In this document: one piece after another, positions 14,173 to 34,476 of the stretch | Numbering within the stretch: position 1 is the stretch's first letter | Layout of the letters: each line of letters opens with the position of its first letter | NCBI GenBank assembly: GCA_030824515.1 | Contig: JAVBXN010000036.1 | Coordinates: forward strand, 1 to 64,000 | From: Pelobacter sp. | GTDB lineage: Bacteria > Desulfobacterota > Desulfuromonadia > Geobacterales > Pseudopelobacteraceae | Direction of reading: 5' to 3' | DNA: 64,000 nucleotides | Program-made: the position numbers and the translations under genes | The notes under the pieces: model-generated | Database searches by the model: none | The model's input: only the letters and a program-made list of their open reading frames with translations | Told to the model about the DNA's origin: nothing

Positions 14173-14198
14173 TTCAGCACCATTGCAACACCGCCGGC

Positions 14199-14882: not shown

Positions 14883-14946
14883 GAATGATTTCACCCTTTT
14901 GTTTATTAGTTCATCCAAATGCCTTACGCCTTGCATGCGGCCTGTT

Positions 14947-17961: not shown

Positions 17962-17987
17962 TTGACATTGATCCATGCTGCTATTAA
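17962..17987 (+). promoter_or_regulatory. possible sigma-70 promoter for the small Sel1 gene
   Basis: TTGACA at 17962-17967 and TATTAA at 17982-17987 with a 14-base spacer; shifting to TTAACA gives 16. It lies about 90 bases before the start of the Sel1 gene at 18075, in the 333-base divergent intergenic region 17742-18074, which otherwise shows nothing recognisable. Confidence 0.3.
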
Positions 17988-18074
17988 CATTCGCTCAGCG
18001 TCCAAATCAACGGAACCCTTTTGAACCAGTTTACAACAACTTGCAAGCAATCAGACCGTACGGGAGGAATGATG

Positions 18075-18485
18075 ATGCCAAGATCAGTATTAACCATGTT
18101 GTGTTGTGCCTGCTTCCTGCTGACAGTTCCAATCTCTTCTCAAGCGTCGTACTTTGACGGCATGGAAGCCTACCGGACAAACGATTATAAGACCGCCCTG
18201 CGGGAGTTCAAAGCATCGGACGATGACGTCAAATCCGAATATATGCTCGGAGTCATGTTCGAGAAGGGACAGGGAGTCAAAACAGATTTTGCAGAGTCGG
18301 CGGCCTGGTACCTCAAAGCAGCCGACAAGGGCAACGCAGCCGCCCAGTACCGCCTGGGGCGTTTCTACGAGCGGGGCCAGGGAGTCGAGCAGAACCGGGA
18401 GGAAGCCCTGAAAATGTACCGGAAATCCGCCCGCCAGGGATACCAGGATGCCAAACAGGCACTAAAAAGAATTGAAGGCAAGTAG
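18075..18485 (+). CDS. small secreted Sel1/TPR-repeat protein
   Basis: 136 residues. Three consecutive ATG codons (18069, 18072, 18075) follow GGGAGG; the third has the best spacing. A signal peptide (SVLTMLCCACFLLTVPISSQA) precedes three to four Sel1-like repeats (YMLGVMFEKGQGVKTD, AQYRLGRFYERGQGVEQN). Such repeats form helical solenoids that bind partner proteins, usually in the periplasm. It is a short relative of the 621-residue Sel1 protein at 22844. The partner is unknown. Confidence 0.8.
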   Translation: MPRSVLTMLCCACFLLTVPISSQASYFDGMEAYRTNDYKTALREFKASDDDVKSEYMLGVMFEKGQGVKTDFAESAAWYLKAADKGNAAAQYRLGRFYERGQGVEQNREEALKMYRKSARQGYQDAKQALKRIEGK

Positions 18486-18531
18486 CTACGCATAGAATAC
18501 GCGCTGGCTTACGGCTAATGCGGCGACGTCC

Positions 18532-20865
18532 CTACAAACGTCGCCGTTCCACGAGCACCAATGCAATCAGGGCCACTCCGCCAATCAGGCTGAACAGCAG
18601 GCCGAACTGAACTTCTCGCGGTTCATAGTCCATTTCTAGTACATGCTTTCCTGAAGGCCACGGCACGGCCCGAACCAGAAAATCCGCCCGCCATATCGGC
18701 ACCTCCCTGCCGTCTATTCTTGCGCGCCAACCAGGCCAATACGAATCATTGACAACCAGAATACCATTGCCATTGGATGTTGCCTCAATTCGAAGGGAGT
18801 TACTCCTTCGGTCAGTGGCAAGCACAGTCCCGGTTCCAAGGTTTCCTGCCGCTGGAGAGCCTTCCAGAATCACCGTAGATTCCCCCCGCTCAAGCACCGA
18901 GGTCAATGCATCCAATGCCTCATTATCGCCTGAGACCGGCTTGACTTTCTCTGCGAACATTGCCCAGGGACGGTGGGGAACCTGCCACCCAGTAAAGTCC
19001 CATTCAAAATTTTCCAGCACTTTGATTCCCCCAGCACTTGCAGCCATTGCAATATCGGCTTCTTTGGCTGAATAAGGGTTCTTTATAATAACGTGAGTCA
19101 ACGAATAGCGCCTCAAGGCTCGCACGGACTGGATTCCAAACTGCTGGTTCAGCGTAGTTATCAACTGATCGAAACGCCGCGGGCGTAACCCGGTATAGGT
19201 GTTGAACTGATCGATATGAGAGGGAACGTTATAAGACGGCGCTCCCATATGTGATTGGCCGCCTGTCTGGGCGTCGAGCTCATCGATCCCTTTCGGGTAA
19301 TGGTAGTTCTCCTCAAGCGGAGTTGAAATCCTGGTTGGTTCTCCTGCGGTTCTTATGCGTGACAGCGGGAAAGGATCATGTATGTTGCGCGCTCCGCTAT
19401 GAAAGGCACAGGGGGCGCTGAAAAGCGATTGCGCGAATACCAGTCCTGCGGCTGACAGTGGAAAAAAGGTACGCATTACATCCCAGCGGCGGGCTGCAGC
19501 GACAAGGCCGGCCAGTGCGAGCAGTGCCACCCCGGCATGAGTCAGCCCGCTGGAAAGATTGTTGATCACGTGCGGAGCGGCATCACTGGCGCCGCTTTCC
19601 GTCAATCTTGATTCCAGTCCGGGCCAATTGGCCAGCAACAGTGCCAACACAAGGAGAACCAACCCCGCACTTCCAGCAAACAGCGCAAATGATTTTGAGG
19701 GGCGTTGCGCGATACGCTCTACGCCAAAAGCGGCAAGAAGCGAACAACACAGGGTCAGGGGGCCGACCATCTTCTCCGCATAACGGAACTTGCCCCAAAC
19801 CGGGATGAAATGCGTGAGTTGTTCCGCACCAAGACTGCTTCCCAGTGCCAGCCAGAGCGCAATTAACGCTGAAATTGCAAGTATCCTGGTTACGCGTGAT
19901 CGTACTGTACCCGCTGCTGCAAGGAGAAGTATGCCGCCCCCGATATGGACGCTTGGCAGGAAAGGCATCTCCAGTCCCGGCCTCGCGAGTCCACCCAGCC
20001 ACATGAATACGGGCCATTTCGTCACCCCCATGTCCGGATTGCCAAAAAATCCTGGTGCCAAGAACTCGATGATGCGCCAGGGCGGCAGGGCCCACTGAAT
20101 CCGGTCGATTGCATCAAGTTCTATCCCGCGGGATGTTTCGCGCAAGAACAGCATCGTCGGGATCAGTTGTATGGCGGCAAGTGCCGTTCCGACGGCCACC
20201 CCTGTCATAGCCCTCCGGAAACCACGACCTGCCCCTGCATCAACGGCCAAAACAACACCTAACAGAAAAGATGCGATAGTCCACTGAGGATCGCCGGCAA
20301 AATGCATCACCGCCGATGCCACCGCGGCCATGACAACTCCAAATCGGCGCCCCTCTCCGGCCATCCGGATTCCGGCAATGCACCATGGCGCGGTGGCTGC
20401 AGCACACAGATATTGGGTGTTTGAACTCAATCCCAGTACATATCCGGAAAGTCCATACCCGAGGCCGGACAGGGCCGCCGCTCCGTAAGAAACTCCAAGG
20501 AAACGTGCCAGCACCGCTCCCCCAAGAGCAGCCAGCATGATGTAGATAATAATAAAAACATCCATTCCTGCCCGGGGAAACAGGAAAGCGCCGATCACAG
20601 ACACCGGGTGGAGAACTCCGTGCATCATTTGAGCAAATAGCGGGATACCGATGACTTCATACGGATTCCACAAGGGTAATTGAAAATTTCTCAGCGCTTC
20701 CACCACGAGCGGCCGGACCGGCTGGAAAAGTTTTGAGGAGTCGCGCCAGACAAGGGAGTAACCTGATATGAGAATCGACAGCGCCGGTATGAGTGCCGCT
20801 GCAGCTACTGCTAAAATCCAGACTAAAAACGTGCGCTTCGGCATTTTATGGCTTGCTCCGAACAT
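18532..20865 (-). CDS. YfhO-like large membrane protein
   Basis: About 777 residues from ATG 20865, which is preceded by a GGGGGG site; ATG 20883 and 20844 are alternatives. Around eleven hydrophobic segments fill residues 1-480, including the family-like early motif LWNPYEVIGIPLFAQ. A large extracytoplasmic beta domain follows at about 490-745, and a last membrane helix lies near the C terminus. YfhO-type proteins are GT-C-fold enzymes proposed to glycosylate cell-envelope polymers in Gram-positives. The start overlaps the end of paralogue 4 (stop at 20846), which implies translational coupling. It fits the surrounding set of putative lipid-linked sugar transferases. Confidence 0.7.
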   Translation of the reverse strand: MFGASHKMPKRTFLVWILAVAAAALIPALSILISGYSLVWRDSSKLFQPVRPLVVEALRNFQLPLWNPYEVIGIPLFAQMMHGVLHPVSVIGAFLFPRAGMDVFIIIYIMLAALGGAVLARFLGVSYGAAALSGLGYGLSGYVLGLSSNTQYLCAAATAPWCIAGIRMAGEGRRFGVVMAAVASAVMHFAGDPQWTIASFLLGVVLAVDAGAGRGFRRAMTGVAVGTALAAIQLIPTMLFLRETSRGIELDAIDRIQWALPPWRIIEFLAPGFFGNPDMGVTKWPVFMWLGGLARPGLEMPFLPSVHIGGGILLLAAAGTVRSRVTRILAISALIALWLALGSSLGAEQLTHFIPVWGKFRYAEKMVGPLTLCCSLLAAFGVERIAQRPSKSFALFAGSAGLVLLVLALLLANWPGLESRLTESGASDAAPHVINNLSSGLTHAGVALLALAGLVAAARRWDVMRTFFPLSAAGLVFAQSLFSAPCAFHSGARNIHDPFPLSRIRTAGEPTRISTPLEENYHYPKGIDELDAQTGGQSHMGAPSYNVPSHIDQFNTYTGLRPRRFDQLITTLNQQFGIQSVRALRRYSLTHVIIKNPYSAKEADIAMAASAGGIKVLENFEWDFTGWQVPHRPWAMFAEKVKPVSGDNEALDALTSVLERGESTVILEGSPAAGNLGTGTVLATDRRSNSLRIEATSNGNGILVVNDSYWPGWRARIDGREVPIWRADFLVRAVPWPSGKHVLEMDYEPREVQFGLLFSLIGGVALIALVLVERRRL

Positions 20866-22537
20866 CTGCTGTGCCCCCCGCATCTATGAAAAGCAGCAGT
20901 TCACGTGTTTGAAGGAGGTGCGCATGATAGGCCTGGTTGCGTGGGGCCAACTTTACAGCTGTTTCGAAACTGCGCATGGCCTCATTTAACAGTCCCTTGT
21001 TTGCCAGAGAATTTCCCATGTTGAAATAGGCCTTGTCGGATTGGGGATTCAGCCATATCGCCATGCGGAATTGCTCGATGGCACTGTCATTCATTCCCTT
21101 TGTTCCATAGGCGACCCCAAGATTGTTATACGTGTTGGACACATCGTTCCTGATAGCGGTTCCTGCTTTGAGCGAATGAACCTGAGGATACAGTCTCAAT
21201 GCAATGCTGAACTGGTTGATGGCCTCATCCACCAGTTTTTGCTGCAGAAGCCCTTCTCCGAAACCATCATGAGTGAACGCTACACGGGGCGCCTTGTTGA
21301 CCGCATCGCCCCAGAGCGTAAAACTGTTTTGCCAGACACCAACCCGGAGATAGCTTGCTACCGCGCATGCCACAATCGCCACTGACAGCCCGAACGTGCG
21401 CGGCAAGGGCCAATTGGAGTCTCCCAACCCCATCCAGGTGGCACGCGGGAGTACGGTAATACTCAGACAAACGGCAGCACCCAGCATCGGAAAATATAGA
21501 TAGCGATCATTCATCAATGTCACGATAGGAATGATCTGGCTAACCGGAATCAGTCCTGCGAAGAACAGTGCATACCAGAAAAATGACTGCCGCTTATGCC
21601 GGTAGAGCCACAATCCGAGACACAGGAGCAGCAGGCATGCTCCTGCAGCCAATGAAACTTCCGGGTCTATGCCGGATTTGATAGTCACATCATAGAAGGC
21701 GCTCAGATTGACGGGCCAGAAGACTAATTTCAGATAGCGCACCAGCACCGGGATCATAGTCAGAAACGTGGAAAATGGACCGCCACCATGAAAGGATGTA
21801 ATTCCGCCGTGCATTTCAGAGTGACTAAGCAACGCAACTGCAACGGTCAAGGCGGCGAGGATCACGAAAGGCAATACGTGGAAAAAGGTTTTTTTGAGAT
21901 GCCTCTCGCAACCGTAACACAGATCGAAAAGCACGATCACCAACGGCATGATCACAACTACAGATTTTGTCAGCAACGCAGCCAGGAAGGCAAGCAATGA
22001 AAGGAGGTACCACCCCAGGCCGGTTCTCTCGCTATCGTGCTGAGACTCACGGTAGCAGATCAGGCTGACAAGGAAGAAGAACATTGCCAGCACGGTTTTT
22101 CTCTCCGCAACCCAGACTACTGCCTCAACCTGCACCGGATGAAGGAGGAAAATCAGAGCCGAGAAAAATGCCCAGGCCATATCCCCTGACAGACGCCTGA
22201 GGAAACCCAGCAGAAGCATTCCGTTTAGTGTGTGCAGCAAGATATTGGTGAATATGAATCCCGATGGCCGCAATCCCCAGATTTCGTAATCGATCATGTA
22301 GGACACCAGGTGGATCGGGGCGTAGTTGCCCAAAAAAAATGTCGTGAAAGCCGTTTTCAAATGATCCGGTGTCAGCCCTCTGATAACCTCGTTTTCCAGG
22401 ATATACTGCCGGTCATCCCAGTTGATCAGGAAATCGTGCCCTAACGCCGGCCAGAAGATCGCGAACGATATTACAGCCAGCAGGACCAGTAGCAGAAAAT
22501 TGCGTTCCTTTTCGTTTAAACGGATGATGTTTGACAT
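20846..22537 (-). CDS. GT-C-like multi-pass membrane protein with C-terminal TPRs (paralogue 4)
   Basis: 563 residues from ATG 22537. The frame extends to 22651, but the extra residues are polar and unlike the paralogues. It begins with a hydrophobic segment, then INWDDRQYILENE (acidic pair), then HPVQVEAVVWVAERKTVL, close to paralogue 1. TPRs occupy about 430-550 (NNLGVAYGTKGMNDSA, KAYFNMGNSLANKGLLNEA). It is the first gene of a two-gene unit with the YfhO-like protein. Confidence 0.72.
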   Translation of the reverse strand: MSNIIRLNEKERNFLLLVLLAVISFAIFWPALGHDFLINWDDRQYILENEVIRGLTPDHLKTAFTTFFLGNYAPIHLVSYMIDYEIWGLRPSGFIFTNILLHTLNGMLLLGFLRRLSGDMAWAFFSALIFLLHPVQVEAVVWVAERKTVLAMFFFLVSLICYRESQHDSERTGLGWYLLSLLAFLAALLTKSVVVIMPLVIVLFDLCYGCERHLKKTFFHVLPFVILAALTVAVALLSHSEMHGGITSFHGGGPFSTFLTMIPVLVRYLKLVFWPVNLSAFYDVTIKSGIDPEVSLAAGACLLLLCLGLWLYRHKRQSFFWYALFFAGLIPVSQIIPIVTLMNDRYLYFPMLGAAVCLSITVLPRATWMGLGDSNWPLPRTFGLSVAIVACAVASYLRVGVWQNSFTLWGDAVNKAPRVAFTHDGFGEGLLQQKLVDEAINQFSIALRLYPQVHSLKAGTAIRNDVSNTYNNLGVAYGTKGMNDSAIEQFRMAIWLNPQSDKAYFNMGNSLANKGLLNEAMRSFETAVKLAPRNQAYHAHLLQTRELLLFIDAGGTADVRSKP

Positions 22538-22682
22538 GTGATTGCCTTGACCGCCTCGGTTTGGTTTCTCAGGCTCGTTCCATTTACTTTTACCATTATT
22601 CACTGAAAAACATACCTTCGTGAAAAAACAGTTGCCGCCGGCTTTATCCAATGGCCCGCCATTTCGAGGAGCAAATTAGTTG

Positions 22683-25645: not shown

Positions 25646-25674
25646 AAAAAGGGCCTGACAGTGAAGTCAGGCCC
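25646..25674 (-). terminator. original chromosomal terminator of tRNA-Lys, now separated from it
   Basis: Stem GGGCCTGAC/GTCAGGCCC (25651-25659 and 25666-25674), with the run of five A at 25646-25650 giving a U-tract on the minus strand. It lies directly after the truncated tRNA-Lys 3' copy. Its architecture matches the terminator at 34361-34391, but the stem sequence differs. Confidence 0.75.
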
Positions 25675-25729
25675 TGTAATGTTTGGTGAGCCGCGTTGGG
25701 GTCGAACCAACGACCACCTGATTAAAAGT
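25672..25729. repeat. left attachment site: 58-bp copy of the tRNA-Lys 3' end
   Basis: Identical over 58 bases to 34389-34446. It contains the last 46 bases of tRNA-Lys (minus strand, CCA at 25684-25686) and 12 bases beyond. The identity stops at the anticodon stem, where the left copy continues into element sequence (GAAATC) and the right copy into the tRNA 5' half. It is one boundary of the integrated element. Confidence 0.9.
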
Positions 25730-25912
25730 GAAATCAAATAACATACTAATATTTTTATTGTTTTTCATTGCCTTGATTCCATACCGCCTTGCGGGTTATA
25801 TTCTTTTTCGTAGTCTTTCCCCGTTTTCTCTGTTTTTATTTCGTTACATTACAAAAACATGACACTTTGTGGCTTTCTCTGTAACCCCTTTTATTTAAAT
25901 AAAGTATGGAAG

Positions 25913-25999
25913 GTCACAACCGTCACAAAGGACACAAACAAAGAATTAAAAAGAGCTTGAACCCGTGACTGTATCAGTGACCATAAAAATGAAGGTCAC
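25913..25999. promoter_or_regulatory. cluster of five GTCAC/GTGAC repeats near the left end of the element
   Basis: GTCAC starts at 25913, 25922 and 25995; the inverted form GTGAC starts at 25965 and 25977. Contexts include GGTCACAAC, CGTCACAAAG, AGTGACC and GGTCACT. They lie between the left att site and the first gene. The same pentamer is clustered upstream of the integrase. Likely a binding array for an element-encoded protein, as in recombination-directionality arms or a replication origin. Confidence 0.55.
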
Positions 26000-26041
26000 T
26001 GAAGCACGGCATAATGTCATTGCACTAAAAGAGGCTTGAAT

Positions 26042-26746
26042 ATGCACGTTGAAGAAATGGCCGGGGAAGACCTGTGGAGATCAGCCGTCAAAATGTTTGG
26101 GTCCGCTGAATCTTACCCCCATTTTCCGGCTAAAATAGACGAAGATTGGAGAAAACAATATTACCAAGCTCAATATTTGGCGCGATTGAAGACTGATTAC
26201 CAAAAAGATAAAAACCCGCTTTATTTACTCAAAACAATTTCCTATTCCAATGAAGCGCAATTCCCTTTGCCCTTTTGGGCACATAATATTTTACGGGATG
26301 CCGCTTTAGAGTTTGAGCGTGGTGCAGGAAATATAACATTCGATGAAATTATCGGGTTGAAGCCTGGAAGGGGCAGAAACGGCCACCTGTTAAAGCAAAT
26401 GAAAAGTGAAAGTCAGAAATGGCGGGCCGCTTTCTCAATCAATGAACTCCATAAATATTTTGGATTCTCTTTGCCGGTCACTTATAAACTATTAAGTATT
26501 GGCGGGATTGAAAGTGATTTTACTTACGAACCCCGGACATTTCTTTCAATAGACCGACTTGAAGAAATATATAAATCAAAGATTGATGTTTTTGATTTTG
26601 ATGAACCTGAATCACCAGATGATAAGCTTTCAGAACTCTATGACAGAGGATATGCCGATTTAATATTTATAAACGAAATAGTTTTGAAAGAAGCCGGGCT
26701 TTATAATTCTGCCGTTCGTTCGCTCAAAAGACTATCTGGGGGGTAA
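26042..26746 (+). CDS. hypothetical element protein with a possible HTH motif
   Basis: 234 residues from ATG 26042, preceded by AAGAGG; a TTG two codons upstream is unlikely. No family is recognised. Near residue 140 the sequence INELHKYFGFSLPVTYKLLSIGGI followed by FLSIDRLEEIYK resembles the winged-helix arrangement of excisionase/MerR-type DNA-binding proteins, so it may bind the nearby GTCAC repeats. A+T content is visibly higher than in the following operon. It stands alone ahead of a 20-base palindrome that separates it from the operon. Confidence 0.6.
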   Translation: MHVEEMAGEDLWRSAVKMFGSAESYPHFPAKIDEDWRKQYYQAQYLARLKTDYQKDKNPLYLLKTISYSNEAQFPLPFWAHNILRDAALEFERGAGNITFDEIIGLKPGRGRNGHLLKQMKSESQKWRAAFSINELHKYFGFSLPVTYKLLSIGGIESDFTYEPRTFLSIDRLEEIYKSKIDVFDFDEPESPDDKLSELYDRGYADLIFINEIVLKEAGLYNSAVRSLKRLSGG

Positions 26747-26803
26747 TAATCCCCGAAATATCCCCCCGCGAAATCCTCTAATTCTTTCCCCATACTGCAA
26801 ACA

Positions 26804-26823
26804 AAGAAAGCGCCCGCTTTCTT
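26804..26823. promoter_or_regulatory. 20-bp palindrome between first gene and operon
   Basis: Arms AAGAAAGCG and CGCTTTCTT are perfect with a CC spacer. The palindrome ends in TTGACC-like sequence, a possible -35, and sits 30 bases before the excisionase-like gene. It could be an operator of the replication operon or a terminator of the preceding gene. Confidence 0.45.
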
Positions 26824-26853
26824 GACCTACTATGCAGAAAGGGGAAAAAATCC

Positions 26854-27099
26854 ATGTCAACACCCACCGCCGGAAACCAACAACAAGAACCCGCCGAATC
26901 TGAAAGATACGCACCCGTCAAAGAGGGGGCCGCCTTCCTGGGGGTCCCGGTCAACACCTTTTACAAAATGTGTCTTGCCCGTCTGATTCCGTCTTACAAA
27001 ATGGGGAAGCTTCGCCGCGTCAAGCTGTCAGAGGTCGCCGCCTTCGCTGAATCGCACCGGGTTGAAGCAAAACCAAGCCGTTGTGGAGGGGCGCTATGA
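26854..27099 (+). CDS. excisionase/AlpA-like small HTH protein
   Basis: 81 residues. After a polar start it shows the HTH_17 pattern APVKEGAAFLGVPVNTFYKM, then YKMGKLRRVKLSEVAAF, the winged-helix signature of excisionases and AlpA-type activators. ATG 26854 follows AGGGG. It is the first gene of the replication operon. AlpA-like proteins switch on excision and transcription in P4-like satellites and PICIs; that role is inferred here. Its stop overlaps the next start (ATGA). Confidence 0.75.
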   Translation: MSTPTAGNQQQEPAESERYAPVKEGAAFLGVPVNTFYKMCLARLIPSYKMGKLRRVKLSEVAAFAESHRVEAKPSRCGGAL

Positions 27100-27329
27100 A
27101 AATTATAAGTATTGTTTCGGCTGTTCCGGGTTGGAAATCAAAATTCACTGATGAAACTGGCAAGCCATTCTTCAGAGATGTTGCAGTTTGGGCGGTTGTT
27201 GAAGAGGAAGGTGTTACCGCAATCACCGGATTTTCTGATAGCAATTTAGAAACGAATTGGCCTGATGATGAGCAAGAGGGTTTCGACGGATGGTTGTTCA
27301 TTCCTGAAGGCGCTTGTCATGGGAAATAA
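27096..27329 (+). CDS. small hypothetical protein
   Basis: 77 residues from ATG 27096, overlapping the previous stop by four bases. It is acidic towards the end and includes VAVWAVVEEEGVTAITGFSD and GFDGWLFIPEG, suggesting a small beta-rich fold. No family is recognised. Its end overlaps the primase start at 27319, so it is translationally embedded in the operon. Confidence 0.65.
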   Translation: MKIISIVSAVPGWKSKFTDETGKPFFRDVAVWAVVEEEGVTAITGFSDSNLETNWPDDEQEGFDGWLFIPEGACHGK

Positions 27330-28170
27330 CCGAAAACAAACCATTATTGATGCCGGGATATTTCCCGCCGTCATGCGTGAACTGTTCCCAAATATGCAGC
27401 CCACCGGCAAAGATCAGGCGCTTGTCAGTTGTCCTTTTCACCAGGATGAAAGCCCGTCCCTTTCCGTCAACCTTTCCGCCGGGTTGTTTCATTGTTTCGC
27501 TTGCGGGGCAAAGGGAAACGGATTTGACTTGTTCATGAAGGTCCGGGGCTGTGATTTCAAGACAGCCCTTCACGACCTGGAAAGCCGCGCCGGGATCACC
27601 ACGGGCCGCCCGTCAACCACGTCACCAAAACCCGCCGCCGGATCCCCGGCAACCACCACCGCGCCGCCGGTCAAGCCGCGCCGGGTTGCCACCTTCTTTT
27701 ATACCGATGCCACCGGAAAGAAGCGATACGGCAAAGAACGATGGGAACCAGCCAGGGACGGGAAACGAAGCAAGGAGTTTTTCTTTTTCCATTTCGATAA
27801 AGCCGGGACCCGTCAAAAAGGTTTCAAAGGTGAACACCTTCTTTACCGGCTTCATGAGATCGTCAAGGCGGATCAGGTTTTTGTATTTGAGGGAGAAGGC
27901 AAAGCAAATTTAGCAGCTTCATGGGGGCTTGCCGCAACCTGCCTTGACACCGGGGCTGAAAGTAAATGGCGGGATTCCTACACTCCACACCTTGCCGGGA
28001 AAGATGTTGTCATAGTCCCGGATAATGACAAGGCCGGGGAAGAATATCTTCAGAAAATAGCGCGGGCGCTTCATGGCGTTGCGCGGTCCGTCCGGGTCTT
28101 GCGCTTGCCGGGCTTGATCGAAAAGCAAGACGTGATTGATTGGGCGCGCCTTCAGGAAGGGGCCGCTTAA
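27319..28170 (+). CDS. CHC2 zinc-finger/TOPRIM DNA primase
   Basis: 283 residues from ATG 27319. The CHC2-type zinc finger is clear at about residues 30-65 (VSCPFHQDESPS...LFHCFACGAKGN). The TOPRIM part follows at about 170-260 with VFVFEGEGKANLAA (the catalytic Glu) and VVIVPDNDKAGEEY (the DxD). It is shorter than chromosomal DnaG and lacks the helicase-binding C terminus, as phage and island primases do. It overlaps the next start (TAATG at 28168-28172), so primase and ATPase are made together. It would prime element replication. Confidence 0.88.
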   Translation: MGNNRKQTIIDAGIFPAVMRELFPNMQPTGKDQALVSCPFHQDESPSLSVNLSAGLFHCFACGAKGNGFDLFMKVRGCDFKTALHDLESRAGITTGRPSTTSPKPAAGSPATTTAPPVKPRRVATFFYTDATGKKRYGKERWEPARDGKRSKEFFFFHFDKAGTRQKGFKGEHLLYRLHEIVKADQVFVFEGEGKANLAASWGLAATCLDTGAESKWRDSYTPHLAGKDVVIVPDNDKAGEEYLQKIARALHGVARSVRVLRLPGLIEKQDVIDWARLQEGAA

Positions 28171-29828
28171 TGACCGCAACCGCTGCCGATGCAAAGGGGC
28201 GCTTCATGGCGCTTGTGCCGTCTGCTGTCACCTGGGAGCCGGAAGAGGCTGAAGCCGTCAAAGATGCCAGGGAAAAGCGCCGCAAGCGTGACCTTGCCCC
28301 TTCTTCTTCACCGGATGAAGCCGGGGGAAGGGGCGCTGATTTGGTCATTCCTATAATTGAGGATTGTCCGCTGTATGTTGACGACACCGGGACCGCCTTT
28401 GTCTGGATTGGGGGAAAGTTGCACCCGCTGGACACAAAGAACCGGGAGCTTGCCGAAGTCATAACGTATCAGTGCCGGGAGATCACCGGAAAATTTCCGT
28501 CAAAGGAAGCCGTCAACACCGCAATTTCCTACTTTGCAGAAAAGGCGCGCCGTGAAGGTGTACCGCTGGAACTGTTCAACCGCGTGGGGGAGCGTGACGG
28601 GCATTATTATTATGACCTGGGGAACGGGCGCGCCGTGGAGATTGGGCCGGGGTCATGGCGGATCACTACCGCGCCGGTTATGTTTCGCCGGATGAATCAC
28701 CAGCAAGCGCAACCGGACCCTTTGCCGGGCGGGGACCCGTGGCGCTTCTTTGATTTTTGCCGTTTGCCGAAAGAGCTTCACCTTTTGGCAATGGTTACAA
28801 TTTGCACTTGTTTTATTCCCCGGATCAGTCACCCCGCAATTCACGTTACCGGATCACAAGGCGCGGGCAAAAGCTTTGCTTCCCGTCTGTTGAAACAGCT
28901 TGTTGACCCGTCCGCCGTCATGCTGTCAACCATGCCGCGTAAAATTGAAGATATGCTTTTGCTGATATGGCGCTATTACGTCCCCATTTTTGACAACGTG
29001 AGCGGATTTAATGCTGAAATCGGGGACGTGTTTTGTTCGATTATTTCCGGCGGGGTTATTGAAAAACGGACCCTGCACACTGATAGCGACACAACCATAA
29101 TGAAGGCAAGCGGGGTTATTGTCTTTTCTTCCATTACCAGCTTACATGACCGCCCGGACCTGCACGAAAGAACAATCAAGCTTGAGCTTGAACGCATACC
29201 AAAGGAAGAGCGCCGAACAGAGCGCCGCCTGTGGGGGGAATTTGAAGCCGCTCTTCCGGGGATATTGGGCGGGGTCTTTGACCTGATAGCAAAGTCAATG
29301 CAGATTTTCCCGAACGTGGAACTTCAGGAGCTTCCCCGCATGGCGGATTATGCAACCTGGGGTTATGCCATTGCCGAAGCAATGGGGGGCCGTGGCGCTG
29401 GATTTATGATTGATTACACCGGCAACGCCACCCTTGCCACCGCTGATTTACTGGAACACAACACCTTCTTTTCTTCGATTGTGCAAGCAATGGAAAGGCC
29501 AGGGCCGGGCGGATTGTCCGGGACGTTCAAAGAGATTTTATGTGAGCTGTTGGAAATTGCCGCGCCGGGCGGATCAGGAGCCAGGGCGCTTGAAAAAGAT
29601 CGGTCTTTCCCTTCCTCACCCCGGAGCTTCAGGAAGCACCTGGAACGGTTGAAGGTCCCGCTTGAAGATATGGGGATTACTTACACCATTGACAACCACC
29701 GGACCAACAAAGGCCGCGCCGCTGTTGAATTCCGCAAGCGTGACCCGGAACCAAAACAGAACACCGCGCCGGATCAGGAAGCGCCGGGCCTTGATGATAT
29801 GGTTTTTGAAGAGGGGGAAATCTTTTGA
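28170..29828 (+). CDS. P-loop replicative ATPase/helicase of the element
   Basis: 552 residues from ATG 28170. A Walker A motif, VTGSQGAGKSFASRLL, lies near residue 230, a probable Walker B, YVPIFDNVSGF, near 270, and a sensor-like SGVIVFSSI near 310. The first 200 residues lack a recognised domain. The pairing with a primase and the spacing of motifs are those of superfamily 3 or DUF927-like helicases in satellites and mobile islands. It ends in an acidic tail (DDMVFEEGEIF). Probable initiator/helicase; the exact family needs a profile search. Confidence 0.75.
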   Translation: MTATAADAKGRFMALVPSAVTWEPEEAEAVKDAREKRRKRDLAPSSSPDEAGGRGADLVIPIIEDCPLYVDDTGTAFVWIGGKLHPLDTKNRELAEVITYQCREITGKFPSKEAVNTAISYFAEKARREGVPLELFNRVGERDGHYYYDLGNGRAVEIGPGSWRITTAPVMFRRMNHQQAQPDPLPGGDPWRFFDFCRLPKELHLLAMVTICTCFIPRISHPAIHVTGSQGAGKSFASRLLKQLVDPSAVMLSTMPRKIEDMLLLIWRYYVPIFDNVSGFNAEIGDVFCSIISGGVIEKRTLHTDSDTTIMKASGVIVFSSITSLHDRPDLHERTIKLELERIPKEERRTERRLWGEFEAALPGILGGVFDLIAKSMQIFPNVELQELPRMADYATWGYAIAEAMGGRGAGFMIDYTGNATLATADLLEHNTFFSSIVQAMERPGPGGLSGTFKEILCELLEIAAPGGSGARALEKDRSFPSSPRSFRKHLERLKVPLEDMGITYTIDNHRTNKGRAAVEFRKRDPEPKQNTAPDQEAPGLDDMVFEEGEIF

Positions 29829-29839
29829 AGGGAATTGAG

Positions 29840-30019
29840 ATGAAGAAATTATTTGTCACCGCACATATGAAAGACCGCCACTGTCCATTAACCCGGAAAA
29901 GATGCCTTGCCGGAAATTGCGCCCTGTGGAGTGATGAAGGCTTTCGGCGGATATACAGCCGGGAATATCGGGGTTGTTTTGCTGTCGGCTATTGCACCTT
30001 GACCAGGGGCCGGAAATGA
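29840..30019 (+). CDS. 59-residue cysteine-rich protein
   Basis: Start ATG 29840, eleven bases after the ATPase stop and preceded by GAAGGGAATTGAG. It has five cysteines (CPLTRKRC, GNCALW, RGCFAVGYC), compatible with a small zinc-binding knuckle. It overlaps the next gene by ATGA. No family is recognised. Confidence 0.6.
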   Translation: MKKLFVTAHMKDRHCPLTRKRCLAGNCALWSDEGFRRIYSREYRGCFAVGYCTLTRGRK

Positions 30020-30417
30020 AGGTTGAATTCGTCAAAGACTTTGAAGCCCGGACCACCGCCGGGAACCGGACCGTTATCGCCGGGACGGTCATTGACCTGG
30101 GGGAAGAGAAGGCAGGCAAGCTGATTGCCGCCGGGGTTGCAAGGGCTGTTGACCTTATCCCTTCATTTAACCCGGATGCCTTGCCGTATATCGACAACCG
30201 GGGCCGCCTTGTCATTCCCTTTGATTGTCCGCCGCGTTACAGATATTGGGCGGGCGGTCAATCGGTCCGGGACACCTTGAAGGAAATCTTTGAAGAGCGC
30301 GCCGCGTGTTTGCCGCGTGATGATTCGATGACCAGGGAACAGGCCGAAGAGGAAGCCGCCCGGATCATGTCAAAGTATTCCGGGGATTATCATAAAGAGA
30401 AGGAACCACAAAAATGA
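30016..30417 (+). CDS. hypothetical protein with small N-terminal beta domain
   Basis: 133 residues from ATG 30016. The N terminus (about 1-50) has the look of a small SH3-like fold used in phage genes (FEARTTAGNRTVIAGTVIDL). A middle segment, FDCPPRYRYWAGGQSVRDTL, and a helical charged end follow. It overlaps both neighbours by four bases. Function unknown. Confidence 0.65.
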   Translation: MKVEFVKDFEARTTAGNRTVIAGTVIDLGEEKAGKLIAAGVARAVDLIPSFNPDALPYIDNRGRLVIPFDCPPRYRYWAGGQSVRDTLKEIFEERAACLPRDDSMTREQAEEEAARIMSKYSGDYHKEKEPQK

Positions 30418-30584
30418 ATTATGCCATTGAACAGGCGCGCCGAAGATGGGCCGCCATGACACCCGCTCAACGTCAAAGGGAGATTGAAAAATATGAAGCG
30501 TGGCTTGAAGTTTGGGAGTTTCGGCAAGCAATGAGACAAATTGAGGAAAGGAGAAAGAGAGATGAAAGGGACCGAAGCAAATAG
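30414..30584 (+). CDS. 56-residue charged helical protein
   Basis: A short frame starting at ATG 30414, which overlaps the previous stop (ATGA), and ending at TAG 30582-30584 inside the next gene. The product is almost entirely Arg/Glu-rich helix (AIEQARRRWAAMTPAQ, RQIEERRKRDERDR). Overlaps at both ends support a real gene in a compact operon. No family is recognised. Confidence 0.6.
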   Translation: MNYAIEQARRRWAAMTPAQRQREIEKYEAWLEVWEFRQAMRQIEERRKRDERDRSK

Positions 30585-31179
30585 GACTATGGGAATGATG
30601 AAAAACAGCACACCGGAACGCTTCAGGAGCCGCAAGGAGGCGCTTCTGTGGTTACAGAGCCGGGGACAGATCAGCCAGGGCAAGTTTTATACTGATTGCA
30701 CCGCCGGGCATTTAACCATTTACCCGGACAAAAGCCTGTCAAAGTTTCAGGTTGCCGAGTATGCAGAAAAGGTTTTCGGGTTTGCCCGGCAAGAACCACC
30801 ACGAAAGGCGGTCCAAAAGATAAACAGGCGCGCCCTGCCACTGTCTGCCGGGCTTTTAGGAAGCGGGCAAGGGCTGTCTATGGACCTAAACGCGAACGGG
30901 GCTGATATAGCGGATAGCAAGAACGGAATTGACAATGTTGACGTGTCCCTGAAGTTAGACACACCGGAGCACTTCGTTGATGAACAAGAACCGGGCCGGG
31001 GAATAATCAGAATAAACGCCGTCCTGAATTTTACCTTAACAGGGGATTTGCAAAGGATGGTTGCCGGATTATTGGATATTGAAGAAGAGCGGATCAATGG
31101 GGCAATTGCCGGGGCGCTTGTTGAACTCATGGGGGAAGGGATCACGAAAGGGGGCTGTCATGTTCAAAATTCAAATTAA
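30562..31179 (+). CDS. hypothetical protein, possibly small-terminase-like DNA-binding protein
   Basis: 205 residues from ATG 30562, with AGGAG upstream. The N-terminal 70 residues (RSRKEALLWLQSRGQISQGK, then KFYTDCTAGHLTIYPDKSLS) look like a compact winged-helix DNA-binding unit of the kind that opens small terminase subunits; the last 80 residues are acidic and helical. Small terminases recognise packaging sites, and satellites such as SaPIs and PICIs carry their own to redirect helper packaging. The match is by impression only and needs a profile or structure search. It overlaps the tail gene by 20 bases. Confidence 0.45.
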   Translation: MKGTEANRTMGMMKNSTPERFRSRKEALLWLQSRGQISQGKFYTDCTAGHLTIYPDKSLSKFQVAEYAEKVFGFARQEPPRKAVQKINRRALPLSAGLLGSGQGLSMDLNANGADIADSKNGIDNVDVSLKLDTPEHFVDEQEPGRGIIRINAVLNFTLTGDLQRMVAGLLDIEEERINGAIAGALVELMGEGITKGGCHVQNSN

Positions 31180-31804
31180 GGTTGACGAAGACCTGAAGCG
31201 CCTTCTTGACCCTGCCACCATACAGAAGGCAACTGCAAGCGCCTTGAACAAGGTCATGAATCAGGCAAAGGCTGCCGCCGTCAACGCCGTCACGGATCGT
31301 TGGAATATTAAGAAGAGCGACCTAACAACAACCGGAACCGGAAAAGCCCGGTTGAAGATCACGCGGGCAACGTGGGAAAGCCAGGTCGCCACCCTGAATA
31401 TATCAGGCCGCCCGCTGTCCCTGTCACTCTTTGCACCGCGTCAAGTCATAGGGGCAACCGTACGTTCACGCCTGGGAAACGCAATCAAGACGGGCAAGGT
31501 CACGGGCCGGATGAAGAAGGCCGGACCTATCCCGCAAGGTGTACTTGTTCAACTGTTGAAAGGTCAAACAACATACCTTCACAAGTCATTCCTTGCCAGT
31601 GTCCGGGCCGGTAATGCCGGGAACCATATAGGAGTTTTTAACCGCATGGGCAAAAGCCGCCTTCCCATATTAGAGAAGCGCCTTATTTCTGTGCCTTCTA
31701 TGTTTGCAAAGGGGAATATCATTCAGGAAGTTGAAAAGGTTGTGAATGAAAAGTTTGATGGGATATTTCGGCATGAACTGGATTATTACCTGAAGCGGGG
31801 TTGA
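31160..31804 (+). CDS. lambda gpZ-like minor tail protein (tail completion)
   Basis: 214 residues from ATG 31160, with a GGGGG-rich site. Basic, with ATIQKATASALNKVMNQAKA near the N terminus, IPQGVLVQLLKG in the middle and a ...FRHELDYYLKR end. This arrangement matches the prophage minor tail protein Z family (lambda gpZ), which finishes the tail so that it can join the head and eject DNA. It is the only recognisable virion gene in the element and the last gene of the operon. A lone tail-completion protein in an island without other structural genes is unusual. Confidence 0.7.
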   Translation: MFKIQIKVDEDLKRLLDPATIQKATASALNKVMNQAKAAAVNAVTDRWNIKKSDLTTTGTGKARLKITRATWESQVATLNISGRPLSLSLFAPRQVIGATVRSRLGNAIKTGKVTGRMKKAGPIPQGVLVQLLKGQTTYLHKSFLASVRAGNAGNHIGVFNRMGKSRLPILEKRLISVPSMFAKGNIIQEVEKVVNEKFDGIFRHELDYYLKRG

Positions 31805-31927
31805 ACCCGGCATAATGCCAAGATCATAACCGGGACCGTTCCCGCTTCATTTCGTTATGTTCCCCGCGCCCCTACACATTCAAGGAAGAGCGGTTGAAAA
31901 AGAATGTCACGCCGGGGCTAGGAAAAA

Positions 31928-31986
31928 CGCGGGTCCTTTGGGGGGTTTTCTCCATGCGGGCGGCTAAGCGCGCAGAGTGTGGGACC
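31928..31986. other. cos-like packaging-site candidate
   Basis: A GC-rich block with GGGTCCTTTGGGGGG at 31931-31945, GCGGGCGGC at 31956-31964, AAGCGCGC just after, and a GGTCC/GGACC inverted pair at its edges (31932-31936, 31982-31986). GCGGGCG-type cores are known at cohesive ends of some lambdoid phages. It lies directly after the tail gene in non-coding DNA. The identification rests on resemblance only. Confidence 0.35.
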
Positions 31987-32222
31987 ATTTAAAATCTGTG
32001 AACCAGATGAAAAAATGAGGGTTTGCATGGTTTCCATGTGTTTCACCCTGTTATTTCAACCAGAGCAAAAGTACCTGATATTTCCAAACGCCGCACAAAG
32101 TTACAAGCCGCCCGTTTGATTGTCAATCAGATGGCCGGGTTTATTCAGGCTAAATTTCAGTATGTTGCGTTATTGTGTCATGTTGATTGTCATGTAAAAG
32201 ATCAGGACAAAATCAGGAAGCA

Positions 32223-32255
32223 AAAAACCCCTTCCATGACCTGAAAGGGGTTTTT
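32223..32255. terminator. bidirectional hairpin terminator
   Basis: AAAAACCCCTT (32223-32233) pairs with AAGGGGTTTTT (32245-32255) around an 11-base loop, with T runs for both strands. It can end the plus-strand operon and the minus-strand regulator transcript. Confidence 0.75.
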
Positions 32256-32286
32256 GATTACCGGGCCAGGATCACCACCGGAACCA

Positions 32287-32309
32287 GGGCCGCCCGTCAA
32301 CCACGTCAC
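32287..32309. repeat. 23-bp copy of a primase-gene segment in non-coding DNA
   Basis: Bases 32287-32309 are identical to 27603-27625 inside the primase gene. A second 20-bp identity (ATTGCCGCGCCGGGCGGATC) links 32392-32411 with the ATPase gene near 29561-29580. Both lie in the 160 bases after the terminator. Confidence 0.7.
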
Positions 32310-32417
32310 AAACGCGCCGGGCCTTTCAGTGACCATGCTCTTCTATTTTCACCGGGGAATTATGGGGGGAAAGGGGATTCTATAACAGGATTGCCGCGCC
32401 GGGCGGATCGGGCCGGG

Positions 32418-32606
32418 CTACTTCTTCACCTGGGGAGAAGGGACCGCGTGACCATGCTTTTCAAGATATTCTTCAGCCGCCGTTTCAATGACCACGTTCA
32501 AGGGTTGTTCAAGATCAAGGGCAAGATGCCGAAGCGCCTTGATGATTTCAGGCCGTAACCGCAAGCCAGATTGAACCCTGTTTATGTCACTCTTTGGGCG
32601 CGCCAT
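32418..32606 (-). CDS. ribbon-helix-helix (CopG/Arc-like) regulator
   Basis: 62 residues from ATG 32606. The pattern VQSGLRLRPEIIKALRHLALD followed by NVVIETAAEEYLEKHG is a ribbon-helix-helix dimer unit. It is the only minus-strand gene of the element and faces the 123-residue protein across an A+T-rich divergent region with inverted repeats, the normal layout of a repressor controlling a lysogeny-like switch. The ribosome site is weak. Confidence 0.7.
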   Translation of the reverse strand: MARPKSDINRVQSGLRLRPEIIKALRHLALDLEQPLNVVIETAAEEYLEKHGHAVPSPQVKK

Positions 32607-32686
32607 GCCTGGGAATATACCTTGTCCTTTTGTTTATTGTCAATTTAACAATAAGGTATAAACATATTGAAATATAATAAATACAA

Positions 32687-32712
32687 TGGTAATAATTATA
32701 TAAATGTTACCA
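32687..32712. promoter_or_regulatory. operator-like inverted repeat in the divergent switch region
   Basis: TGGTAA (32687-32692) and TTACCA (32707-32712) are an inverted pair 14 bases apart in very A+T-rich DNA, with -10-like TATAAT at 32673-32678 nearby. A second small inverted repeat (ATTGT/ACAAT) lies near 32636-32652. This is the likely control region between the ribbon-helix-helix gene and the plus-strand gene. Confidence 0.5.
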
Positions 32713-32731
32713 AAAACAAAAGGGGGCCACA

Positions 32732-33103
32732 ATGCCAGGTATTGAAAGAGTGACGGAAGCGGGTAAAGGCAATCTATTTCACGTTATACACTATGGCGGA
32801 ATTGAATATACAACCACCGCTGAAGCCGCCGCCCGGAAGATTATTGACGAAATTGAACCTTTACTTGATGACGTGTCAGCCGGGCTTCAGTTTTTGGCCG
32901 GGTCCCTGGAACGGGCGGCAAATGAAGAACGGGGAGGACTTAGGCAATGGCAAGTAATGGGGATTTTGGGACTTATCAGGGGGATTCAAGGACGCGCCGC
33001 CGGGGTTGAACTTGATTTACGGGCTGCAATTGACGTTTTGAGGGCCTTTGGAAAATCAGAACGTCACAAAGAAAGTCACGGTCAAAGTCACGCTGTTTTA
33101 TAA
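32732..33103 (+). CDS. hypothetical element protein
   Basis: 123 residues from ATG 32732, with an AGGGGG site. A short beta start (FHVIHYGGIEYTTT) precedes three helices and a charged tail (KSERHKESHGQSH). The tail codons coincide with the first GTCAC repeats of the iteron-like array. No family is recognised. It lies upstream of the integrase and across from the ribbon-helix-helix gene. Confidence 0.6.
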   Translation: MPGIERVTEAGKGNLFHVIHYGGIEYTTTAEAAARKIIDEIEPLLDDVSAGLQFLAGSLERAANEERGGLRQWQVMGILGLIRGIQGRAAGVELDLRAAIDVLRAFGKSERHKESHGQSHAVL

Positions 33104-33141
33104 ATTAAATCGGGCTGTTGTGACCTTGTGACCGAAGTGAC
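33063..33141. promoter_or_regulatory. six GTCAC/GTGAC repeats, iteron-like array before the integrase
   Basis: GTCAC starts at 33063, 33075 and 33087, exactly 12 bases apart; inverted GTGAC starts at 33120, 33128 and 33137. Three copies point one way and three the other around an A+T-rich centre (TTTTATAAATTAAAT). The array overlaps the end of the preceding gene and lies 60 bases before the integrase start. Either a replication origin (iterons around an A+T-rich core) or the operator region of the integrase gene. Confidence 0.65.
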
Positions 33142-33201
33142 CATTATTCACGCTTATATTTATTGCTTTTATGTTTGCACATGCTGAAAGGAGCCGAAAC
33201 C

Positions 33202-34356
33202 ATGCCGAAGATCAGGAAGACAAAAGGTATATATCGCCGGGGCCGGGTTTACTGGATCACATTCATGGGGCTTGATGGTAAGCAGAAATATGAAAGCACC
33301 GGAAGCGACCTGAAAGCAGATGCCGAGCTTCTTCTTGCACAACGCCGGGTTGACATTGACCAGGGGAAGGAACCTATCACGCGCCGCCGGGATCGGAACT
33401 ACACCTTCAGCCAGCTTGCGGAAAAATACAAGCCGTTCATTGCAAACCAGAAAGGGGCCGCCACAAAATCAGGCTTCATTTCGCATTTTGAAAAAGATTT
33501 CGGAACGCTGAAGCTGAATAATTTCAACCTTGCGCTTGTGGAGGGTTGGCAATCTCGGAAGTTATCTGAAAACCGCCCGGAGAGAAAAAAAGGCAACGGT
33601 GAATTGCCACCACTGAAACCGGCAAGCGTGAACCGCGCCCTTGCTTGCCTGAAGCACATGTTCACGAAGGCGCTTGATTGGGAAATGATTTCAGATGACG
33701 TTTTCAAGCGGGTCCGCAAGGTCAAGCTTTCACCGGAAAACAACCGCCGCTTGCGTTACCTGTCTTTTGAAGAAAGCGCCACCCTGCTAAATTCATGCGA
33801 TAAGCATCTGAAGCCGATTGTTGCTTTTGCCCTTAACACGGGATGCCGCCGGGGTGAAATTCTGGGGTTGACCTGGGACCGGGTAGACCTGAAGCATGGC
33901 TTCATTCTGCTTGATGATACGAAGAGCGGGAAGCGCCGGGAAATACCAATAAATGCAACCGTCCGGGCCGTTCTTCAAGGGATTGTCAGAAGGCTTGATG
34001 TTCCGTATGTGTTTGTGAACCCGGAAACCGTCAAGGAGCGCCCGCCAGTAAAAGAAGGCGGGAAAAAGCGCCCGGCTTCAGGCCGATATTATGACCTGAA
34101 GAAATCCTTTGCCACCGCTTGCCGGAAAGCAGGAATCAAGGACTTTCATTTTCACGACTTGCGCCACACTTTTGCAAGCCAGCTTGTAATGAACGGGGTT
34201 GACATTACCACCGTTTCAAAACTCCTGGGACACGCAAACCTGACAATGACCCTTCGATATGCCCACCTTGCACAAGGCCACCTGAAGAGCGCGGTTGACG
34301 TATTAAGCCGACTTTCTTCTTCACATGACAATTTACATGACAAAGCCGCTGTTTAG
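33202..34356 (+). CDS. tyrosine site-specific recombinase (integrase)
   Basis: 384 residues from ATG 33202, preceded by AAAGGAG. It has an N-terminal arm domain, a SAM-like core-binding domain (about 60-170) and a catalytic domain with all expected residues: Arg in NTGCRRGEILGL, Lys in DDTKSGKRREIP, HxxR in FHDLRHTFAS, His in LLGHANLT and Tyr in LRYAHL. It sits 33 bases from the right attachment site and points at it. Integration into the tRNA-Lys 3' end is evident from the flanking repeats. Confidence 0.95.
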   Translation: MPKIRKTKGIYRRGRVYWITFMGLDGKQKYESTGSDLKADAELLLAQRRVDIDQGKEPITRRRDRNYTFSQLAEKYKPFIANQKGAATKSGFISHFEKDFGTLKLNNFNLALVEGWQSRKLSENRPERKKGNGELPPLKPASVNRALACLKHMFTKALDWEMISDDVFKRVRKVKLSPENNRRLRYLSFEESATLLNSCDKHLKPIVAFALNTGCRRGEILGLTWDRVDLKHGFILLDDTKSGKRREIPINATVRAVLQGIVRRLDVPYVFVNPETVKERPPVKEGGKKRPASGRYYDLKKSFATACRKAGIKDFHFHDLRHTFASQLVMNGVDITTVSKLLGHANLTMTLRYAHLAQGHLKSAVDVLSRLSSSHDNLHDKAAV

Positions 34357-34360
34357 ACAC

Positions 34361-34391
34361 AAAAAGGGACTTACGATTTAACGTAAGTCCC
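34361..34391 (-). terminator. element-borne terminator of tRNA-Lys
   Basis: Stem GGGACTTACG/CGTAAGTCCC (34366-34375 and 34382-34391), with the A run at 34361-34365 giving a U-tract for minus-strand transcripts. It replaces the chromosomal terminator that was displaced to 25646-25674. It also lies just after the integrase stop. Confidence 0.75.
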
Positions 34392-34446
34392 TGTAATGTT
34401 TGGTGAGCCGCGTTGGGGTCGAACCAACGACCACCTGATTAAAAGT
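34389..34446. repeat. right attachment site: 58-bp repeat within tRNA-Lys
   Basis: Identical to 25672-25729. It forms the 3' part of the functional tRNA-Lys gene and the element boundary. Confidence 0.9.
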
Positions 34447-34476
34447 CAGGTGCTCTACCGACTGAGCTAGCGGCTC
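34401..34476 (-). tRNA. tRNA-Lys (anticodon UUU)
   Basis: 76 bases including an encoded CCA. On the minus strand it begins GAGCCGCTAGCTCAG, has the anticodon stem-loop CCTGA-CTTTTAA-TCAGG and the T loop GGTTCGACC, and ends GCGGCTCACCA. The acceptor stem GAGCCGC/GCGGCTC pairs fully. Its 3' 46 bases come from the integrated element's attachment site, so the gene is intact and functional after integration. Confidence 0.97.

Follow-up and report, generated by a model that had tools for sequence, protein, structure and literature searches.

The stretch of DNA analysed here (the window) comprises 64,000 nt from Pelobacter sp. (Geobacterales; GCA_030824515.1, contig JAVBXN010000036.1, positions 1-64,000). 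It contains an island of 8.7 kb inserted in a tRNA-Lys gene, whose genes include an integrase, a replication module, a gene derived from the phage packaging protein TerS and a gene for a gpZ-like tail completion protein. A repeat search defines its ends as a direct repeat of 64 nt (25666-25729 and 34383-34446) with 97% identity, 58 nt of it exact, at a spacing of 8717. The left repeat is a copy of the 3' half of the tRNA-Lys together with downstream bases. The right repeat overlaps the 3' half of the intact target gene, a tRNA-Lys (ttt; 34401-34476, reverse strand), which is the sole tRNA found by ARAGORN in the window. The empty site is preserved in a genome of the same genus (G084), with one uninterrupted tRNA-Lys and both window flanks contiguous and colinear at 85% and 87% identity. 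In G075 and G077 the intact tRNA adjoins the right flank, and the left-flank match is limited to approximately 90 bp.

The content of the insert resembles that of a phage-inducible chromosomal island (PICI). A tyrosine integrase (33202-34356, forward strand, with an alternative upstream start at 33163; Phage_integrase 1.7e-33) would provide the island with an enzyme of its own for the specific attachment (att) site. An AlpA/excisionase-like helix-turn-helix (HTH) regulator (26854-27099, forward strand) is recognised by Pfam, PHROG and NCBIfam (HTH_17 1.5e-9; TIGR01764 excisionase 1.4e-8) and shares 74% over 72 amino acids (aa) with its counterpart in a related element (G130 C226). No large terminase (TerL), portal or capsid gene could be recognised in the insert by Pfam and PHROG scans, tblastn or a check of open reading frame (ORF) length, and the set of terminase, portal, capsid and tail genes of a complete prophage is absent. 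Besides the primase, the helicase and the integrase the insert has no ORF of at least 250 aa, so none is long enough for the usual large terminase, portal or capsid gene. An earlier interpretation made from the letters alone (the sequence-only reading) had proposed a satellite-type island with a 58-bp tRNA-Lys repeat, an integrase, an excisionase-like HTH, a CHC2/TOPRIM primase, a P-loop ATPase, a gpZ-like tail protein and no capsid genes; all of these features are borne out by the present searches, although the paired repeats at the island ends had been overlooked.

These paired repeats are TACATGACA-like sites found by repeat scan. One pair lies near the left end (25845-25864, forward strand; 11 bp apart, at 25845 and 25856), one near the right end (34322-34342, forward strand; 12 bp apart, at 34322 and 34334) and a third is internal (32176-32196, reverse strand; 12 bp apart, at 32176 and 32188). 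The three pairs are the only ones in 64 kb and all fall within the island, while 200 mononucleotide shuffles of the 64 kb gave a mean of 0.015 pairs and a maximum of 1. Single TACATGACA-like sites are also in excess (20 versus 9.9 expected; 0 of 100 shuffles reached 20). Pairs occur at the integrase end of the related elements in G135, G130 C9 and G102 (L031), in the last of which they are close to both copies of a 49-bp tRNA-Met repeat, and an internal pair is found in G135 and G130 C9 as well. One pair is present in G122 (L030), distant from its integrase. By inference, the terminal pairs are putative arm sites of the integrase. The internal pair overlaps a non-coding block (32100-32197) that sequence comparison finds in two sister elements at 77-79% over 98 bp.

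The replication module consists of two genes on the forward strand. The first encodes a primase with a CHC2 zinc finger and a TOPRIM domain (27319-28170; Pfam, PHROG and sister comparison), for which the CHC2 match is 6e-17 and the TOPRIM matches stay under their cut-offs. The second encodes a P-loop protein of 552 aa (28170-29828), its putative partner, which has no Pfam, PHROG, PADLOC or NCBIfam match. An AlphaFold2 model built from 33 sequences (pLDDT 83) was compared with the PDB by Foldseek, and the best 25 matches include the C-terminal region of NrS-1, viral superfamily 3 (SF3)/D5 helicases and the SaPI5 primase-helicase 7ola (E 4e-9 to 1.4e-7). The TM-score against chains A-C of 7ola is 0.52-0.58 on target; at such moderate scores, and with a large root-mean-square deviation, the model supports the SF3/D5 helicase class and not the details. 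In one related locus (L029) primase and helicase are a single protein, and the called frame of G135 also spans both. A viral-contig scan with the window helicase as query gave no relative. A second helicase relative in the window's own genome (G000:C8, L034 9134-11107) has 37% identity and is accompanied by an integrase relative and by large genes that by eye resemble those of defence islands.

The gene orfI (30562-31179, forward strand) encodes the N-terminal DNA-binding part of a TerS, as identified by profile search and comparison. It shares 60-63% over approximately 60 residues with a 206-aa protein of G135 and with a protein of G130 C226. The 206-aa protein has matches in 8 of the 141 genomes of the order, the window's genome counted. 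In four prophage contigs (G080, G136, G130 C129 and G094 C18) its relative lies directly upstream of a 626-634-aa gene, which is a GpA-type large terminase according to a Pfam scan of the two tested (G136 and G080) and a GpA family search that lists all four. A profile made from the TerS of these four prophages and of G021, whose TerL is approximately 4 kb further on, matches the G135 protein over its full length (2e-51). It also matches the G130 C226 protein (3e-27), an orphan in G081 (3e-26) and two more proteins encoded upstream of TerL at a distance of a few hundred bases (G087, 4e-39; G001, 9e-18). These matches and the position before TerL identify the G135-type protein as TerS. Pfam, PHROG and NCBIfam do not recognise this type of TerS, and a viral-contig scan with the G135 protein as query gave no relative. 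The orphan in G081 (G081:C5, L150 9429-9992, reverse strand) lies beside genes that by eye are ribbon-helix-helix-like and methylase-like, possibly in another satellite; a GpA terminase search of G081 found none.

The window orfI matches the TerS profile at 3e-17 in its N-terminal part only. The C-terminal part has a weak likeness (E 0.007) to a stand-alone gene of 92 aa located before gpZ in G130 C61, and we read orfI as a probable fusion of the TerS DNA-binding part to another small domain. A merely frameshifted TerS was considered and rejected, since the match from the TerS search of the genome is limited to residues 21-83, which indicates that the C-terminus was replaced and not shifted.

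The gpZ-like gene follows (31160-31804, forward strand; 214 aa; Pfam, PHROG and homologue searches). Its product matches Minor_tail_Z (PF06763; 4.6e-8, 33.5 bits against a cut-off of 23.9) and PHROG 27 (annotated 'tail completion or Neck1'; 5.6e-23), over nearly the full protein in both cases, and these profile matches support its membership of the lambda gpZ/tail completion family. It is full-length and aligns throughout with phage gpZ. The sequence-only reading had taken it for the one recognisable virion gene of the island; the gpZ assignment stands, and the TerS-derived packaging gene orfI had been missed. A gpZ match at E 0.01 or better is present in 13 of 50,697 phage records. Among 395 sampled genomes of the phylum, 6 contain this type of gpZ at E 1e-8, with the window and G138 counted, so the type is uncommon; among the remaining matches, that of G309 is on a short contig and that of G227 is among chromosomal genes. 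The window's own genome has a single match. Viral-contig scans with the window gpZ and with an alignment of two phage gpZ gave no relative.

Within the order, 10 of the 141 genomes have a gpZ relative, the window's genome counted. In six of the nine others (G094, G089, G021, G001, G004 and G087) gpZ and a D5-type replication gene, recognised by Pfam in all six, are no more than 1 kb apart, and in G087, G001 and G021 a GpA terminase is found downstream on the same contig. Of the remaining three, the G138 gene is in a satellite-like island and those of G136 and G012 could be placed in neither context. The G012 relative (G012:C34, L038 3240-3899) lies beside a coiled-coil-like ORF without recognised phage neighbours. 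Two viral contigs (L221 and L222) contain the order int-gpZ-D5-primase-clamp-TerS-TerL-portal in one piece, the primase being of the CHC2 type, and the prophages contain pieces of it. In L224 gpZ precedes D5; the other contigs of the same scan, apart from L228, have no gpZ match. In Sulfurimonas phage SNW-1 gpZ lies between the replication genes and TerS, and Vibrio phage X29 and the G365 phage have it among their structural genes. No gpZ neighbour was seen for the tail-terminator gene of either structural cassette, G080 or G094, and G080 has a gpZ of another type in its early region. In the phage lineage that has this TerS and gpZ, gpZ is thus mostly an early-region gene and not part of a tail cassette.

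Sister elements are present at other tRNA genes and have the core primase-helicase-orfG-integrase in common. The gene lists of these and of the other loci compared with the window follow a longest-ORF rule that admits spurious ORFs, and many gene names there were given by eye. The related integrases adjoin tRNA-Arg in G135 (74-78% identity to the window integrase), tRNA-Met in G102 C225 (49-bp repeat) and tRNA-Gly in G102 C156 (48-bp repeat). The G135 element encodes the primase-helicase, orfG, a full TerS, an 84-aa gene, a ribbon-helix-helix (RHH) regulator, a RadC-like protein and the integrase. It has no gpZ in the stretch covered, from TerS to the integrase, its left end lying off the contig, and no large terminase was found in the covered part. 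TerS without TerL is a PICI-like feature. An element in G130 is taken to be split over two contigs with a gap between them, C226 with the genes from alpA to TerS and C9 with RHH and the integrase, and its covered part also has TerS without TerL. The G102 C225 element combines the same replication core with a restriction-modification gene and has no TerS or gpZ match. G122 and G130 C61 also have the replication core in common with the window island. From this comparison gpZ is not a conserved core gene of the element family. The description of the island as a cassette built around a tail completion protein is therefore not supported: gpZ is one gene, G135 has TerS without it and the G102 sister has the restriction-modification gene instead.

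The tRNA-Gly island (L172, G102:C156 7874-15607) is 7.7 kb long between its 48-bp repeats, and its integrase is 52% identical to that of the window. A 170-aa protein of this island was considered as a TerS and rejected, having a weak phrog_51 match (6e-6) only and no Pfam TerS match. Beside the G130 sister element, the start of contig C9 (L171, 1-560) has a tandem-repeat-like array with a unit of approximately 137 bp by eye, and a peptide motif similar to this array is found upstream of alpA in L028.

Genes of the gpZ type were found in four other islands: G138, G130 C61, G333 and the viral contig L228. Some of them have a tape-measure or capsid gene, and tblastn with a GpA-type TerL and three portals found neither TerL nor portal in any of the four. 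The G138 island has a tape measure (2.8e-29), a DUF927 primase, gpZ, an AlpA-like gene and, by eye, an integrase; the best phage match of its tape measure (62% over 110 aa) is in the G136 phage contig. Copies of a 14-bp repeat separated by 18.9 kb lie at the 5' end of smc and the edge of the island; because four other repeats of 14-16 bp occur in the same stretch, only the position speaks for it. The G130 C61 island contains a Phage_capsid_4 capsid (1.5e-41), an AAA protein, a primase-helicase, a tape measure (PHROG 4e-54), a weak alpA match (0.002) and, by eye, HicAB-like genes and repressors. Its integrase is at the contig start, which leaves that island end open. The gpZ of this island belongs to another branch (PHROG 1924 9e-24, PHROG 27 5e-10) and has as its closest relative the early-region gpZ of the G080 prophage (43-46%); a profile comparison with the other type gives E 1e-4 and a probability of 58.

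The G333 island is located in a complete chromosome of another family and spans 15.7 kb between 45-bp tRNA-Arg repeats. It encodes a capsid domain (43% identity with the capsid portion of the protease-capsid protein of Pseudomonas phage MD8), gpZ, a D5 helicase and, by eye, alpA-, tape-measure- and chaperone-like genes. L228 has the same gene order, with the capsid at 70%, the tape-measure-like protein at 50% and the chaperone-like protein at 59% to G333, and this repetition argues against decay, although the L228 integrase frame is broken by a stop. The L228 D5 protein is 54% identical to a G094 prophage protein. The identity of the tape-measure-like protein in G333 and L228 is unconfirmed, the name having been given by eye. 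It has no tblastn match in phages or plasmids, phrog_2335 and PF10145 are silent there, and a viral-contig scan found only L228 itself. Profile comparison with four tape measures gives E 0.015 to 0.27, and three controls give 0.25 to 0.37. The chaperone-like gene beside it has no match. Among the four islands, unnamed ORFs of at least 300 aa occur in G138 only (a 390-aa restriction-like ORF and one of 308 aa), and L228 has one of 290 aa.

In a tree of 18 gpZ sequences, which leaves out the G130 C61 type, G333 groups with L228 (100/100) and G138 with the G136 phage (100/99). The window is placed elsewhere without support, and 7 of the 15 inner branches are unsupported. From tree and family we infer at least three separate acquisitions of gpZ-type genes by islands, and the window is likely a fourth.

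The insert is probably a PICI-like phage satellite that would be packaged by a helper of the gpZ-early lineage and would supply its own gpZ, a reading to which we assign a probability of about 0.6. The predicted satellite nature is supported by the integrase, AlpA, the primase with its SF3-type helicase, the tRNA site with an empty counterpart, the tRNA-sited sisters, the lack of recognisable TerL, portal and capsid genes and the TerS-derived gene, whose phage relatives precede TerL. Excision of the island at the tRNA-Lys repeats by the integrase with the AlpA-like protein is suggested by its gene content, by both att copies and by the arm-like repeat pairs. Judged by family and fold, the island's own primase and helicase would then copy it. 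Packaging would be carried out by a helper with the order int-gpZ-D5-primase-clamp-TerS-TerL(GpA)-portal. The TerS-derived DNA-binding protein may mark the satellite DNA or block the helper's own mark. On the model of the 80-alpha/SaPI1 neck, the satellite gpZ would sit between the packaged DNA end and the tape measure, and helper heads and tails would close around satellite DNA. Where the DNA end or the tape measure of a satellite is unlike that of its helper, the satellite may need a tail completion protein of its own.

Several observations weigh against this reading. The C-terminal part of TerS binds TerL, and orfI is without it, so packaging by orfI is uncertain; for packaging of the PICI type the window has the N-terminal part only, where G135 has the full TerS. 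The closest sister, G135, has no gpZ, and the single-sequence model of the window gpZ (pLDDT 37) is too poor for fold comparison. No close copy of the island was found in the 141 genomes of the order, the best helicase being 58% identical, and selection on gpZ is therefore not measurable. In a viral structure library the helicase model is matched best by a protein from an uncultured Caudovirales phage, annotated as ATP-binding (5e-34), and 19 unclassified viral-contig loci have helicase relatives at 26-32%; the helicase family thus extends beyond satellites. A resident helper, which the sequence-only reading had suggested seeking in the same genome, did not emerge. In the host genome (62 contigs, listed as 100% complete) two Pfam terminase families, PF03354 and PF05876, are silent, the one PHROG tried (phrog_2) gives two weak matches only (4e-5 and 3e-4), and the single gpZ match is that of the window. 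With no clear host terminase there is no known resident helper, and the helper would come from outside or be unlike the families tried.

A missing helper and a truncated TerS would also be expected of a prophage deletion remnant, in which a gpZ-early phage was reduced to its integrase, replication genes, part of TerS and gpZ. The relation of both TerS and gpZ to that phage lineage and the helicase relatives in viral contigs point the same way. The helicase, however, is unlike the D5_N/DUF5906 proteins of those prophages, whose replication proteins differ from those of the island apart from the CHC2 finger. Moreover, gpZ follows TerS and is not beside the replication genes, and the sisters keep the core primase-helicase-orfG-integrase beside other tRNA genes. 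The gene order of the island, which the sequence-only reading had advised looking for in complete prophages, was not seen in the prophages and viral contigs examined, with their order starting int-gpZ-D5. A remnant is accordingly very unlikely. An ordinary integrative island without phage packaging, whose cargo happens to include two phage genes, would fit the wide distribution of the helicase family (62 loci in genome contigs, some by eye beside restriction-like genes) and the G102 C225 sister with its restriction-modification gene in place of TerS and gpZ. This is somewhat easier to imagine yet improbable, given TerS without TerL in the covered parts of the G135 and G130 C226 elements and no mobilisation or conjugation family among the Pfam matches of the element.

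The truncated TerS and the gpZ-like protein could alternatively be decoys. The TerS part would cover the packaging site of the helper and the gpZ-like protein would poison neck assembly, so that the host or the island is protected without particle building. The retention of only the N-terminal part of TerS agrees with such interference, as does the restriction-modification gene of a sister, and satellites and prophages that disturb tail or virion assembly are described in the published accounts (PMC12987554, PMC11364771, PMC10884400). Against interference, the gpZ is of full length with phage-like alignment throughout; we consider this reading unlikely, though less so than the remnant or the ordinary island.

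Satellites redirect packaging and capsid size, and those of the P4-like type have genes such as Psu, Delta and Sid. None of these families is among the Pfam matches of the element, which covers only those with a Pfam model. Gram-negative PICIs are described as having Int, AlpA, a primase-replication module, a specific att site, TerS in some cases and packaging by a helper (PMC6092414). In gene content the island resembles them in its integrase, AlpA, replication module and att site, and may do so in its TerS-derived gene; it differs in its replication proteins, the TerS cut to its N-terminal part and the gpZ-like gene. The lone capsid gene of some gpZ islands has parallels in PmCI172 and SaPIbov5 as described in the same source (PMC6092414). 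Capsid-forming PICIs (cf-PICIs) are reported to encode sets of head and packaging genes (PMC10690885); the window island would share with them a satellite-encoded virion part and, with no further ORF of at least 250 aa, has no capsid, portal and terminase set of its own. Vibrio phage-inducible chromosomal island-like elements (PLEs) were described in 2026 to alter the helper tail, giving chimeric tails, and to carry a tape measure, a chaperone and in some cases a baseplate hub, and putative tape-measure genes are noted in PLE-like elements and some cf-PICIs (PMC12987554). By that description, PLEs and the window island would both devote a gene to the assembly of the helper-particle tail, the gene being a tail completion protein here and a tape measure, chaperone or baseplate hub in PLEs. 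The claim of the sequence-only reading that a cassette of this kind is unlike the capsid-remodelling or capsid-forming types thus needs trimming. No satellite with its own tail completion protein was found among the literature titles and starts of abstracts listed, a search of few term combinations with most subscription papers outside it.

The tail completion protein of SaPI1 particles formed with 80-alpha is described as lying in the neck alongside DNA and interacting with the tape measure; the same source mentions a proposal that lambda gpZ specifically contacts one end of the DNA (PMC11661146). In the SaPI1 particles this protein comes from the helper, whereas the window island encodes its own. 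Particles of lambda and SPP1 without it are reported to look normal and to be mostly not infectious (PMC11099176). If the satellite-encoded protein is real, the neck, where packaged DNA meets the tape measure, would be a further target of satellites. Tentatively, and with less confidence than for the window alone, tail completion proteins could be a recurrent satellite tool. Several lineages would independently have taken a gpZ-type gene from phages, in many of which gpZ is an early-region gene, and paired it with a TerS DNA-end marker (the window) or with a tape measure and/or a single capsid gene (G138, G130 C61, G333 and L228). The DNA-head-tail junction would be rebuilt in this way so that the neck recognises the satellite genome end or an altered tail. 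As gpZ recurs in separate islands, the idea is open to testing, and the early-region location of gpZ in this phage lineage raises the question of the reason for encoding a tail protein next to replication functions.

The remaining genes of the island are small. On the forward strand, orfA (26036-26746, 236 aa) has no family in Pfam, PHROG, PADLOC or NCBIfam scans and no relative among the loci compared. The same lack of relatives applies to orfC (27096-27329, 77 aa; weak matches to WW, 0.023, and phrog_9822, 0.094, none in PADLOC; no assigned family) and to orfL (32732-33103, 123 aa; no Pfam or PADLOC family). Relatives are known for orfF (29825-30019, 64 aa, or 59 from an inner ATG; 46% over 39 aa to the G130 C226 element) and orfG (30016-30417, 133 aa; five related elements, 52-65% over the aligned parts), and orfH (30414-30584, 56 aa) is an ORF call with no assigned family. 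The RHH regulator (32418-32606, reverse strand) matches RHH_1 at 9e-4, 1 bit below the Pfam cut-off, and is 81% identical to that of the G135 element. Outside the island, the window has five large ORFs of 580-783 aa (10396-22651, reverse strand), which by eye look like membrane-protein paralogues; several of them have a similar stretch that contains FDD close to the start. A 2376-aa ORF is located at 1024-8154 (reverse strand), with a short ORF nearby (114-488) that by eye is RHS-like.

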